DNA from: Hymenobacter metallicola
GTDB lineage: Bacteria; Bacteroidota; Bacteroidia; Cytophagales; Hymenobacteraceae
Assembly: GCF_004745645.1 (NCBI RefSeq)
Contig: NZ_SRMB01000005.1
Coordinates: forward strand, 372,001 to 436,000
Length of the DNA stretch: 64,000 nucleotides
Direction of reading: 5' to 3'
The notes beneath the pieces were generated by a model. It ran no database searches. It was not told the DNA's origin and saw nothing but the letters and a program-made list of their open reading frames with translations. Position numbers and translations under genes: made by a program. This document shows positions 8,138-12,532 of the stretch, in pieces; positions within the stretch are counted from its first letter, which is position 1, and the number at the start of each line of letters is the position of its first letter.

Positions 8138-10582
8138 ATGGCCGACTCCGTTCAGGAAAATAATTACATGATTAATGACCTGGCCGCCCGGGGGAAGCAG
8201 GAGTTCTTCCCCGGCCAGGTGCTTTCCTGCTCGCAGCAGGGCAGCGACTTCCTCTTTACCTGCGACAATGGCGTGCAACTTAGCGTGCAGGTCATTACCG
8301 ACAAAATTCTGCGCTTCCGCTACGCCACCGAAGTGGGCTTTGCCGCCGACTTCAGCTACGCCGTGCCCGCCGACCAGCCCCGGGCTGCCCTGGAGTTTCT
8401 GGAGTTTCGCGAGAAGCCCGACCACTACCGCATCACCACCGAGCGTCTGATCTGCACGATCAGCAAGCTCAACACCGCCGCCCGCATCCTGGACCGCTCC
8501 GGGACGCTTTTGTCGGCCGACGAGAAGGGCTTCCACTGGGAGTACGACTACGAAACCGGCAACGACATCGTTAAGATGAGCAAGCAGGTGCAGAGCGGGG
8601 TGCACTACTACGGCCTGGGCGACAAGCCCGACAACATGAACCTGCGCGGCAAGCGCTTCACCAACTGGGGCACCGACACCTACGGCTATACCAAGGGCTC
8701 GGACCCGCTCTACAAGAACATTCCGTTCTACCTGGAGCTGCAGCAGAAGATTGCCCACGGCATTTTCTTCGATAACACCTTCAAGGCCTCCTTCGACTTT
8801 GCCGCCGAGCGGGCCGACGTGACCAGCTTCTGGGCCATGGGCGGGGAGATGAACTACTACTTCATCTACGGCCCCACCCTCACCGAAGTCACCCAGGAGT
8901 ACACCCGCCTGACCTGCCCGCCCGAGCTGCCGCCGCTGTGGGCCCTGGGCTACCACCAGTGCAAGTGGAGCTACTTCCCCGAAAGCAACTTCCGCAGCAT
9001 CGCCAAGGGCTTCCGGGAACGGAAAATCCCCTGCGACGCGCTGTATCTGGACATCGACTACATGGACGGCTACCGGTGCTTTACCTGGAGCCCTACGCAC
9101 TTCCCCGAACCTAAGAAAATGGTCAGGGAGCTGGCCGAGGATGGCTTCAAAACCATCGTCATCATCGACCCCGGCATCAAGATTGACCCCAACTACAGCG
9201 TGTATAAGGAAGGGCTGGAAAATGACTACTTCTGCCGCCGCGCCGACGGGCCCCTGATGAAAGGCTCGGTGTGGCCCGGCCTGTGCAACTTCCCCGACTA
9301 CACCCGCCCCGACGTGCGCGAGTGGTGGGCGGGCCTGTTCAAGGGCCTGATTCAGGAGGATGGCGTGCGGGGCGTGTGGAACGACATGAACGAGCCGGCC
9401 GTGTTCGAGAAGGGCACCTTCCCCGACGACGTGCGCTTTCATTACGATGGGCACTCGGCGTCCCACAAAAAGGCCCACAACATCTACGGCATGCAGATGG
9501 CCCGGGCCACGGCGGCGGGTGTGAAGCAGTTTAGCTACCCCAACCGGCCCTTTACCATCACCCGCAGCACCTACGCCGGCGGGCAGCGCTACTCCTCGGC
9601 CTGGACCGGCGACAACATCGCCAGCTGGGAGCACCTGTGGCTGGCCAACATCCAGTGCCAGCGCCTGAGCATCTCGGGCTTCAGCTTCGTGGGCTCCGAC
9701 GTGGGCGGCTTCATCGACACCCCCGACGGGGAGCTGTACGTGCGCTGGGTAGCCCTGGCGGCCTTCCACCCGTTCTTCCGCACCCACAGCTCTGGTGACC
9801 ACGGCGACCAGGAGCCCTGGAGCTTCGGTGAGCAGTACCTCGACCTGGCCCGCGGCTTCATCGAGTTGCGCTACCGCCTGCTGCCCTATATGTACACCAC
9901 CTTCTGGCAGTACGTGCAGGATGGTACGCCCGTGCTGCGGCCCCTCACGTTTCTCGACCAGAACGACACGGAAACCTACCTGCGCATGGCCGAGTTCAGC
10001 CTCGGCGACCACCTGCTGGTGTGCCCCATCACCCAGGCCGGCGCCGACGGCCGCTGGATGTACCTGCCCCGCGGCGACTGGTTCTACTACTGGACCGACG
10101 AAGCCAAAACTGGTGGCGCCGAAGTGTGGGCCAGTGCCCCCCTCGACCGGATTCCGCTGTTCGTGAAAGCCGGCGCCGTGATTCCGATGTACCCGCTGAT
10201 GCAGTACGTGGGCGAGAAAAAAGTGGAAGAGCTTACCCTGCACGTGTACTACAAGCAGGGCTCGGAAACCAGCGTGGTGTACGAGGACGGGGGCGAAGGC
10301 TACGGCTACCAGCAGGGCCAGAGCACCACCCGCCGTTTTACCGTAACCGGCACCGCCGCCAGCCTGACGCTTACCCAAACCATTGAAGGAGACTATCAGC
10401 CCAGCTTTACCACCTACCGAGTGGTGTTTCACGGGTTTGGAGTAGGACAGGCCACTGCCGATGGCCAGGAAACCGCCGTAGCGGAAACATCGGAGCAGGG
10501 ACTGGTTCTGCCACAGGTGCTGGTGGCCAGCAACTTTACGCAGATAGTGGCTACCCCTTTAAAAGAGGAAAAAGCTAGCTAG
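8138..10582 (+). CDS. GH31 alpha-glucosidase, cytoplasmic
   Basis: An 814-residue member of glycoside hydrolase family 31, which cleaves terminal alpha-linked glucose from maltose-like or related oligosaccharides. There is no signal peptide, so it should act in the cytoplasm. The N-terminal sandwich carries YYGLGDKP and NLRGKRFTNWGTDTYGY; the barrel carries GYHQCKWSYF, LDIDYMDGYRCFTW, the nucleophile Asp416 in VWNDMNEPAVF, the acid/base Asp492 in WTGDNIASW, and SGFSFVGSDVGGF; the C-terminal sandwiches follow (PITQAGADGRWMYLP). I chose the ATG at 8138 because a promoter ends at 8110, although 8108 and 8168 are in frame too. A terminator follows at 10607. Related to the partial exported GH31 at the left edge. 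Confidence 0.95.
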   Translation: MADSVQENNYMINDLAARGKQEFFPGQVLSCSQQGSDFLFTCDNGVQLSVQVITDKILRFRYATEVGFAADFSYAVPADQPRAALEFLEFREKPDHYRITTERLICTISKLNTAARILDRSGTLLSADEKGFHWEYDYETGNDIVKMSKQVQSGVHYYGLGDKPDNMNLRGKRFTNWGTDTYGYTKGSDPLYKNIPFYLELQQKIAHGIFFDNTFKASFDFAAERADVTSFWAMGGEMNYYFIYGPTLTEVTQEYTRLTCPPELPPLWALGYHQCKWSYFPESNFRSIAKGFRERKIPCDALYLDIDYMDGYRCFTWSPTHFPEPKKMVRELAEDGFKTIVIIDPGIKIDPNYSVYKEGLENDYFCRRADGPLMKGSVWPGLCNFPDYTRPDVREWWAGLFKGLIQEDGVRGVWNDMNEPAVFEKGTFPDDVRFHYDGHSASHKKAHNIYGMQMARATAAGVKQFSYPNRPFTITRSTYAGGQRYSSAWTGDNIASWEHLWLANIQCQRLSISGFSFVGSDVGGFIDTPDGELYVRWVALAAFHPFFRTHSSGDHGDQEPWSFGEQYLDLARGFIELRYRLLPYMYTTFWQYVQDGTPVLRPLTFLDQNDTETYLRMAEFSLGDHLLVCPITQAGADGRWMYLPRGDWFYYWTDEAKTGGAEVWASAPLDRIPLFVKAGAVIPMYPLMQYVGEKKVEELTLHVYYKQGSETSVVYEDGGEGYGYQQGQSTTRRFTVTGTAASLTLTQTIEGDYQPSFTTYRVVFHGFGVGQATADGQETAVAETSEQGLVLPQVLVASNFTQIVATPLKEEKAS

Positions 10583-10606
10583 CCACTTTGTATTCGAGTC
10601 CGGTAG

Positions 10607-10640
10607 CCCCTTTGTCAGACTTCTGGCAAAGGGGTTTTTT
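10607..10640 (+). terminator. Rho-independent terminator of the GH31 gene
   Basis: CCCCTTTGTCAGA pairs with TCTGGCAAAGGGG across a two-base turn (one G-T pair) and is followed by six T. It lies 25 bases after the stop codon. Confidence 0.88.
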
Positions 10641-10713
10641 ATTTGACCAAGCACCGCGACAAAAGGATGAGTTTACGCTGCTTGGCACCGGGTTGATACT
10701 GCCAAAAGCAGGA

Positions 10714-10758
10714 TTGGTGTAATAAATTTCAAGGGCCGCTGCGCCGTCACTACGTTTG
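10714..10758 (+). promoter_or_regulatory. Promoter of small-RNA unit 1, with conserved upstream box
   Basis: TTTC at 10727-10730 and TACGTTTG at 10751-10758 form -33 and -7 elements 20 bases apart, the canonical Bacteroidota spacing. A box TTGGTGTAAT at 10714-10723 lies just upstream. The same three parts recur in the same order at 11200-11244, with the distance from TTGG to TTTG exactly 41 bases in both. Confidence 0.7.
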
Positions 10759-10764
10759 TATCAT

Positions 10765-10982
10765 CCTACTACAAGATAGTATTTGTGATATAGATAGAAG
10801 GGTTTATTTATAGAGTGATTCAATAAAATACAGGTTGCTATTTTAATTATAATAGGTAGTCTGATGCTGCCGGTATTATGTGATAGTTAGGTATTTATTT
10901 TTAGTTGATTAATTATTAGTTTATTGTATTTGTTATTTTATTGAAAGCCAACTCAGGTTATCTGAGTTGGCTTTCTCTTTTT
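10765..10982 (+). ncRNA. Putative small RNA 1 of a tandem pair (about 218 nt)
   Basis: The stretch from the predicted start near 10765 to the terminator at 10943-10982 is very AT-rich in a GC-rich genome and has no ORF longer than a few codons. It follows a canonical promoter and ends with a 14-base-pair hairpin and T tail, so it is read as an RNA gene. The next unit (11251-11428) has the same promoter and a similar 3' sequence (GTATTTGTTATTTTATT here, GTATTCGTTATTTTATT there) before its own terminator. The bodies between are only weakly alike. No known RNA family was recognised; a 6S-like RNA, a trans-acting regulator or a peptide too short to judge are all possible. Confidence 0.5.
10943..10982 (+). 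terminator. Terminator of small-RNA unit 1
   Basis: GAAAGCCAACTCAG, five-base loop, then CTGAGTTGGCTTTC and TCTTTTT: a perfect 14-base-pair stem with a T-rich tail. Confidence 0.9.
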
Positions 10983-11199
10983 AGGGCACTTGCAAACGAG
11001 AAGTGAACCCTCCTACGGTGAACTCGGATACATCTCCCGGATCCGAAACCTCGAATCGGGAGGCGTATAGGTGATGCTAGTGGCTTATAGATAGCGCAGC
11101 AGCCTTTCGGCAGGCCAGGCTGCGTCTTTGGGGCAGCTACCACAACTACTGCTACAGCTGGTCAGTAGCATCATCGGATTGGTCCTGACAAAGTACGGG
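10983..11199. other. Spacer between the two small-RNA units
   Basis: No protein gene seen. It is GC-richer than the flanking RNA units and holds small inverted repeats near 11058-11064 (CGGGAGG region) and a GCAGCAGCCT / AGGCTGCG stem at about 11096-11124. It may be an upstream regulatory region of unit 2 or part of a longer unit 1 transcript. Confidence 0.4.
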
Positions 11200-11244
11200 T
11201 TGGTGTAATTTATTTTCGTTCGAGGAGGAGCTATTCTATGTTTG
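11200..11244 (+). promoter_or_regulatory. Promoter of small-RNA unit 2, with conserved upstream box
   Basis: TTGGTGTAAT at 11200-11209, TTTC at 11214-11217 and TATGTTTG at 11237-11244 (19 bases between -33 and -7) repeat the arrangement seen at 10714-10758. Both are followed directly by TATCATC. Upstream, GACAAAGTACGGG here parallels GCCAAAAGCAGGA there. Confidence 0.7.
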
Positions 11245-11250
11245 TATCAT

Positions 11251-11428
11251 CAGAACGGCGAAATAAACCGGTGCTGTTAAAACAGGGTTTTTAAAAGGAT
11301 AGGTTAAGCGTCGATTACTTATATTTTATATTATTGCGAGTTTATATTTATTAGCTGTATTCGTTATTTTATTTTTATTGTTATTTAAAAAAAAGAACCC
11401 GACACTGGCAGGTCGGGTTCTTTTTTTT
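11251..11428 (+). ncRNA. Putative small RNA 2 of a tandem pair (about 178 nt)
   Basis: Runs from the predicted transcription start to the end of a strong terminator. It is AT-rich, has no ATG-started ORF of note, and shares promoter architecture and its 3' body (the GTATTCGTTATTTTATT stretch) with unit 1. The AT-rich body contains TTAAAACAGGGTTTTTAA, a small stem. The lipase-like gene converges on it from the right, so a read-through or antisense role toward that gene cannot be excluded. Confidence 0.5.
11387..11428. terminator. Terminator of small-RNA unit 2, also for the convergent hydrolase gene
   Basis: AAAAAAAAGAACCCGAC, eight-base loop, then GTCGGGTTC and eight T. A-rich and T-rich flanks allow use from both strands; the hydrolase gene on the other strand ends at 11456. 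Confidence 0.92.
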
Positions 11429-11455
11429 GTCCTGGTTGGTTCAATGGCCGCCTGT

Positions 11456-12532
11456 TTACAGATGCTTCCGGATGTAGGCATACACTTCCGGATTAGAAAG
11501 CAGACCGGCGTGGCTTTGCTGCGCAAATACGCGGGTGTGAATCTGGGTGTCGGGCGGCGGGGCGGGGTCGCCGAAAATGCGGCCGACGGCACTCCCAGCG
11601 CCCACCAGACCATCCCCAAAATAGTGGTGCAGGGCCGAGCTCGCCGTTTTGAGCAGCGACCCCACCAGCACGTGATACGGAACGCCGGGCAGGGGCGGCA
11701 CTACGGTGCGGGGTGGCATCAATACGTCGTCGGCGTGCGGGCTTTGCCAGTCCTGGTCGACCAGCCAGGCGTGGCGCAGGTCCTTGATGCCGTTGCTGCG
11801 CTGGTCCATGGCTTTGCTCAAAAAGCGCGTGGGGGCCACATTTATTTTGCGCAGCATTACGGAGGTCAGGTGGCTGTTCTGCTCCAGAAACGAACCGTCG
11901 TTGGGCACGCCCAGCAAAAAGACCGACCGTAGCCGGGCTACCCACGGGGCCGGGGCCGTCGGGCCGTGGGTGCCGTAGTAGCCCGCGCTGCGAATGACGA
12001 GTCCTCCCATCGAATGGCCCACCAAGACCAACTGCTCCACGGCGTCAGGGTGGGTCGTTAGCAGGTCGGTGAGCAGGTGGGAAAGCAGCTGGCCGTTTTG
12101 GGAAATGTGCAGGCCGCTGTTGTAGCGCACGTACAGGCAGCGCACCCCGGCCTCGCGCTGCAGCAGCGGTCCGTAGCGGGGCGTGTCGGGGGTGCCAGTC
12201 TGCCAGATCATTTCGTCGCCCATCAGGCCGTGCAGAAACACCACCGTCGTCAGGGCCGGGCCCGGCAGGTGCAGGTCGGCCACGGCCACGTCGGCGCCGA
12301 GCTGGCGGAAGCTCATTTGGATAGCCTTGGGGTCCTGACGCGCCGCCAGCTGGTCGCCAATAGCCCCGTTTAGAATAGGCAGGGTAAAATGGCGGTAAGC
12401 CTGCCCGGCCTGGTAGAGGTAGTCGAGGCCCTGGACCGGAAGCGAAGCCGCCCTTCGCGCGGCGGCCGAAAAACGGCGCCAGCGCGAAGGGCGGTCAGCA
12501 GAGTCACCAGCGGGGGTGGATGGTTCGGTCAC
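11456..12532 (-). CDS. PGAP1/lipase-like alpha/beta hydrolase
   Basis: A 358-residue serine hydrolase of the alpha/beta fold, probably a lipase or esterase. After a basic amphipathic N-terminus (to about residue 50) the fold shows the first core strand and oxyanion turn TTVVFLHGLMGDEMIW (about 93-108), the nucleophile elbow VGHSMGGLV, LLGVPNDGS and a C-terminal FAQQSHAGL that should hold the catalytic His. No signal peptide is clear. The start codon is GTG at 12532; its first bases overlap the TGA of the upstream T9SS gene (GTGA), so translation is probably coupled. The natural substrate is unknown. Confidence 0.85.
   Translation of the reverse strand: MTEPSTPAGDSADRPSRWRRFSAAARRAASLPVQGLDYLYQAGQAYRHFTLPILNGAIGDQLAARQDPKAIQMSFRQLGADVAVADLHLPGPALTTVVFLHGLMGDEMIWQTGTPDTPRYGPLLQREAGVRCLYVRYNSGLHISQNGQLLSHLLTDLLTTHPDAVEQLVLVGHSMGGLVIRSAGYYGTHGPTAPAPWVARLRSVFLLGVPNDGSFLEQNSHLTSVMLRKINVAPTRFLSKAMDQRSNGIKDLRHAWLVDQDWQSPHADDVLMPPRTVVPPLPGVPYHVLVGSLLKTASSALHHYFGDGLVGAGSAVGRIFGDPAPPPDTQIHTRVFAQQSHAGLLSNPEVYAYIRKHL

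Follow-up and report, generated by a model that had tools for sequence, protein, structure and literature searches.

Two ORF-free promoter-to-terminator units in Hymenobacter metallicola share a LytTR-type promoter element with a lanthipeptide-type gene cluster

The window analyzed here is a stretch of 64,000 nucleotides from the genome of Hymenobacter metallicola (G000, contig C10:372001-436000), with a GC content of 62%. A gene named from its sequence as a GH31-type alpha-glucosidase (8138..10582, plus strand) and a convergent alpha/beta hydrolase gene (11456..12532, minus strand) form the left and right anchors of an island that comprises two promoter-to-terminator units without protein genes. 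In unit 1, a promoter core at 10727..10758 (plus strand; TTTC at -33 and TACGTTTG at -7) is followed by an AU-rich body (10765..10942, plus strand) and an intrinsic terminator (10943..10981, plus strand) made of a 15-bp stem plus TCTTTTT. Unit 2 has its promoter core at 11213..11244 (plus strand; TTTTC at -33 and TATGTTTG at -7) and an AU-rich RNA body at 11251..11387 (plus strand). Its terminator (11388..11429) is a 17-pair hairpin of an A-tract and a T-tract (-22.9 kcal/mol); being bidirectional and possibly ending the leftward hydrolase gene as well, it is weaker evidence of rightward transcription than the promoter. GC content is 24% in the unit 1 body and 28% in the unit 2 body versus 55% in the spacer between the units, and neither unit of the window contains an ORF longer than 10 codons between start and terminator. 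A search of the whole window against Rfam at the gathering score returned no match for either unit; permissive matches scored far under the cut-off and fell at or near the terminator hairpin of unit 2. A conserved fold of the unit bodies was considered and rejected, with z = 0.1 and 1.1 once the terminator is removed.

The original prediction, made from the sequence of this region, saw here a tandem small-RNA pair derived from a duplicated non-coding RNA gene. Its descriptive part is confirmed: AT-rich, ORF-free bodies in a GC-rich genome, strong terminators and no recognizable RNA family are all found as described, and the same is true of the common promoter. The box TTGGTGTAAT occurs in the window at 10714 and 11200 only, the -7 block TA(C/T)GTTTGTATCATC at 10751 and 11237 only, each unit has a -33 element, the distance from TTGG to TTTG is exactly 41 bases in both units, and both have the start block TATCATC. 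The sequence TANGTTTGTATCATC is present twice in the entire 5.9-Mb home genome, at the promoters of units 1 and 2 (genome-wide statements are based on pattern searches). The 3' parts also resemble each other as claimed, through a block TGTATT[TC]GTTATTTTATT of 18 nt with one mismatch, a likeness matched by 2 of 1000 dinucleotide-shuffled sequences. Each unit contains one of the two copies of TTATTTTATT in the window; we rejected this motif as a genome-wide family tag, as most of its 17 copies have unrelated surroundings; being the same when reversed, the motif also gives no informative reversed control. No BLAST cross-match was obtained between units 1 and 2 in the home genome.

Overlooked in the original prediction was a second half-site (TTGGTnC/TTGATnC) placed exactly 21 bp 5' of each copy of TTGGTGTAAT. 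In unit 1, half-site TTGATACTGCCAAA at 10693 and TTGGTGTAAT at 10714 form a repeat spanning 10693..10723; in unit 2, half-site TTGGTCCTGACAAA at 11179 and TTGGTGTAAT at 11200 form a repeat spanning 11179..11209, both on the plus strand. With these upstream half-sites, the full element is a direct repeat of 21-bp period before a Bacteroidota promoter.

To locate the element elsewhere, we searched 120 Hymenobacter genomes for TTGGTGTAAT followed by TANNTTTG at 22-32 bases. This pattern was found at 41 places, with a spacer of 27 in nearly all, against 2 for a reversed control pattern. Alignment of the 41 distinct promoters shows the second half-site, TT(G/T)(G/A)TnC.....AA, exactly 21 bp 5' of TTGGTGTAAT. 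Identically spaced elements are found in 20 of the 120 genomes. A box with a 25-bp spacer in genome G077 was taken as chance, because that genome has no close ortholog of the regulator presented below. A relaxed form of the element occurs at five places in the home genome (reversed control, 0): the two units, the promoter of a LanC-like gene, a unit poor in ORFs at C9:509480, and a weak site that has 3 mismatches. What units 1 and 2 have in common is mainly this promoter element, which is regulon-wide and precedes unrelated genes too.

The orthologous two-unit island is found in eight genomes: the window, H. lucidus BT178 (G082, locus L004), G067, G068, G069, G060, G090 and G001. A GH31 tree places them in a single clade with 100/99 support, although the forks inside this clade are weakly supported. 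The promoter pair has the same order in all eight. No box was detected at the other Hymenobacter GH31 loci examined, several of which have the hydrolase gene 100-200 bases downstream. Most simply, the island would have arisen once, in the ancestor of the eight-genome clade, since this one clade has it and the other GH31 loci examined have no box.

The two units differ in what their orthologs contain. In G060, G090 and G001, the unit 1 promoter drives a lipoprotein gene of 332-343 aa, followed by an AU-rich 3'UTR and a terminator. In the window, G082, G067, G068 and G069, promoter, body and terminator are present without the lipoprotein ORF, and these bodies are AU-rich except in G082 (46% GC). 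The tails of the ORF-less loci can be aligned to the 3'UTRs found where the ORF is present (TTATTnTTA...GATAGTTATTTTATT...ATTAGTTATTTTAT-AAAAGGCC-type). Furthermore, the upstream half-site of unit 1 in the window, TTGATACTGCC (TTGATnCTGC), belongs to the type seen at promoters of the lipoprotein family, such as TTGATCCTGCT in G060 and TTGATACTGCT at a paralog, and lipoprotein paralogs located elsewhere in these genomes have the box as well. Since tail, half-site type and paralogs agree, the most plausible reading of unit 1 is that its promoter, tail and terminator are those of a lipoprotein gene whose ORF is missing. A tblastn search for lipoprotein coding remnants in unit 1 found none. The unit 1 body of the window (~177 nt) is longer than the bare 3'UTR, and hence not the product of a clean deletion. 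Loss of the lipoprotein would be a simpler history than repeated gain within the clade but, given the weak forks there, not a proven one. If this reading is correct, the locus shows that the promoter and tail of a gene can outlast its coding sequence.

The box-driven lipoprotein family includes L119:3695-4690 and paralogs in L158-L165; no relatives were found in G000 and G067-G069. In a sequence search the family matches the C-terminal part of Mpf2Ba1 (PDB 8b6v, E 2e-16), and the matched part is perhaps a membrane-binding domain.

Unit 2, unlike unit 1, behaves as a standing small-RNA locus. It is present in 8/8 island genomes, with a long ORF in none. The direct repeat is conserved across the eight, as are the 5' end ATCATCAGAAnnGC(A/G), the sequence TATGTTTGTATCATCAGAAnnGC(A/G), the U-rich tail TTATTGTTATTTA and a terminator located 187-255 nt after the box. 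Body length ranges from 134 to 199 nt, with 22-30% GC where measured. In G067, G068 and G069, unit 2 contains a 24-codon ORF for MKKRYW(T/S/N)(R/K)(V/M)T(S/M)(V/I)INN(M/V)FDFILFEL, to which nothing related is found in the other five genomes. Differences within this ORF fall mostly at third positions (10/15, 12/20 and 11/17 in the pairwise comparisons), and each pair has 8 synonymous codon changes, a pattern typical of a translated 24-aa peptide. We consider it most likely that unit 2 acts at the RNA level, through an accessible, conserved 5' end and the U-rich tail. Against such a function, the body sequence is poorly conserved and structure beyond the terminator is absent (z = 1.1); conservation of unit 2 could also serve the convergent hydrolase gene via the terminator.

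Published LytTR sites are 9-bp direct repeats, about 12 bp apart, a few bases before the -35 element (PMC6193735). The unit promoters have this geometry, with direct repeats that have a period of about 21 bp and lie a few bases 5' of the -35/-33 position, and a LytTR gene linked to the same element is present in the home genome (C12:65759-66487). An ortholog of this regulator (bits above 330, the next class lying below 246) occurs in 20/20 genomes with the exactly spaced box versus 15/100 others (Fisher P = 1.1e-13), so that 15 genomes have the regulator without an exact box. At six loci in the home genome and its relatives (L125, L127, L129, L118, L131 and L124), a histidine-kinase-like gene and then a response regulator gene adjoin box promoters. 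Pfam domains Response_reg and LytTR were identified in 4/4 regulators scanned and His_kinase in 2/2 kinases scanned.

In the home genome, this locus (L125, C12 about 62900-69000) is a lanthipeptide-type cluster that contains a box promoter, a 60-aa ORF, a LanC-like gene, divergent His_kinase and LytTR genes, and LanB. The box drives the strand opposite the kinase and LytTR genes, toward the LanC-like gene, with the gene for LanB, a lantibiotic dehydratase, at the far side. Located beside LanC, the 60-aa ORF (MKNVDENPKF...) contains Ser/Thr/Cys and has no family match in Pfam or NCBIfam, and is for this reason described only as a candidate lanthipeptide precursor. In G082 (C19; locus L118, positions 8590-11745 of the locus), two box promoters 140 bp apart lie 5' of a gene for an OMP_b-brl_3 outer-membrane protein, after which comes an ORF whose leader is of the class I lanthipeptide kind (NF038153, E 3e-8).

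From the repeat geometry and the co-occurrence of regulator and box we infer, with good support, that the LytTR regulator controls both units, which are apparently co-regulated. This regulon connection is the main gain over the original prediction. We thus propose, with a probability of about 0.6, that the island produces two transcripts switched on by the LytTR regulator, unit 1 being the ORF-less lipoprotein unit and unit 2 a short AU-rich output RNA of the lanthipeptide-linked system. A lanthipeptide-like peptide signal would presumably be sensed by the histidine kinase and relayed to the LytTR regulator, which, once phosphorylated, would bind the 21-bp repeats as a dimer and activate transcription. 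Unit 1 would then give an ORF-less transcript and unit 2 a short AU-rich RNA, predicted to be non-coding in five genomes and to carry the 24-aa peptide ORF in three; speculatively, this RNA may act via its accessible 5' end, or its U-rich tail may be a site for an RNA-binding protein. What emerges is a testable Hymenobacter regulon, with a precise candidate binding element, a candidate regulator, a lanthipeptide-type cluster and small output RNAs.

A bolder version, which we hold as tentative, makes unit 2 the RNA arm of a lanthipeptide-linked, quorum-type LytTR system in Bacteroidota: a dual-function RNA, regulatory in all genomes and peptide-coding in some, that would have agr/RNAIII as its independent counterpart and would be accompanied in the home genome by one or more other box-driven transcripts poor in ORFs (C9:509322-509545). 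Both units might instead be husks, that is, the promoters, tails and terminators of genes that have lost their coding sequence, a lipoprotein gene in unit 1 and a small-peptide gene in unit 2, still transcribed and functionless. The lipoprotein ORF at unit 1 in three relatives suggests as much, and so does the 24-codon ORF of unit 2, which is constrained at the codon level in three relatives (10-12 of 15-20 changes at third positions) and absent from the window. However, in the five ORF-less genomes, which belong to more than one branch, unit 2 keeps its AU-rich composition and its length as well as its promoter, 5' end and tail motif, and TANGTTTGTATCATC is confined in the home genome to the two perfect promoters of the window; we regard this explanation as unlikely.

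Still less probable in our opinion is that unit 2 is chiefly a small-peptide gene whose RNA is the mRNA for the 24-aa peptide, lost in some lineages including that of the window: the conserved MKKRYW... peptide of G067, G068 and G069, with its 8 synonymous codon changes per pair, speaks for such a gene, but the ORF is confined to one three-genome sub-clade and has no relative in the other five genomes. As for the tandem duplication of a non-coding RNA gene, the similar promoters, the common 18-nt 3' block and the unchanged order of the promoter pair in eight genomes are what it would leave. Yet the promoter is shared by a whole regulon, the units have different upstream half-sites and no BLAST cross-match, and three orthologous unit 1 loci hold a lipoprotein gene, so that we consider a duplication very improbable and find this part of the original prediction unsupported. 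Of the tandem small-RNA pair, what stands is two ORF-free promoter-to-terminator units, with a promoter pair conserved in eight genomes; unit 1 is a lipoprotein gene locus in three relatives, which leaves unit 2 as the standing small-RNA locus.

Small RNAs of LytTR peptide systems are best known from staphylococci, and RNAIII-type effector RNAs, which are transcribed from LytTR promoters and pair with mRNAs to act on them, are long and highly structured, with conserved hairpins. The literature we searched offered no description of a small RNA tied to a LytTR peptide system in Bacteroidota. Unit 2 agrees with RNAIII-type effectors in its promoter class but, without structure beyond its terminator, not in its fold; as it is short and lacks structure, we do not class it as RNAIII, and the comparison is one of position. 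At agr P3/RNAIII of Staphylococcus aureus, a short transcript likewise lies behind a direct repeat for a LytTR response regulator, which belongs to a two-component system linked to a peptide; RNAIII is made from an AgrA-activated promoter and, like unit 2 in three species, includes an ORF for a small peptide, delta-hemolysin in its case (PMC4227749). In contrast to RNAIII, unit 2 is about 178 nt long, AU-rich and unstructured, lies away from the regulator genes and belongs to another phylum; no sequence relation is claimed.

LytTR regulatory systems such as HdrR/BrsR of Streptococcus mutans control bacteriocin genes and, like the LRS-like operons of Bacteroides, have direct repeats of about 21-22 bp period a few bases 5' of the promoter (PMC6193735). 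Hymenobacter differs from both in having a kinase and a response regulator in place of a membrane inhibitor pair, in its repeat sequence, and in outputs that include ORF-free transcripts. FopS/GibS of Bacteroides thetaiotaomicron are comparable as small RNAs from Bacteroidota that combine a single-stranded 5' region with a terminator hairpin, although the FopS family has 14 members, which share a seed and have canonical promoters (PMC11697453), and the Hymenobacter island has two units only. Neither Rfam at gathering nor the genome search, with TANGTTTGTATCATC found only twice, provided a link to FopS.

A third box-driven, ORF-poor promoter-to-terminator unit, this one GC-rich, was observed in the home genome at C9:509322-509545 (minus strand; L193), with orthologs in G082 (L194) and in G069, G068 and G067 (L195-L197). 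Ahead of its terminator is a 3' block of strong conservation, ATTGGTTTGGAAGRRAANTAAAAAAGGCACC, which a short reading frame (..NWFGRE(V/L)KKGT) overlaps in some genomes. We regard this unit as a candidate small RNA belonging to the regulon of units 1 and 2. Finally, box promoters at L087, L088 and L106 (in G067, G068 and G060) are followed by TTTGCT(C/T)ACCC or TTTGACTTACC and not by TATCATC. L087 and L106 have a similar downstream reading frame that is not clearly a gene, and the three promoters possibly belong to another RNA.
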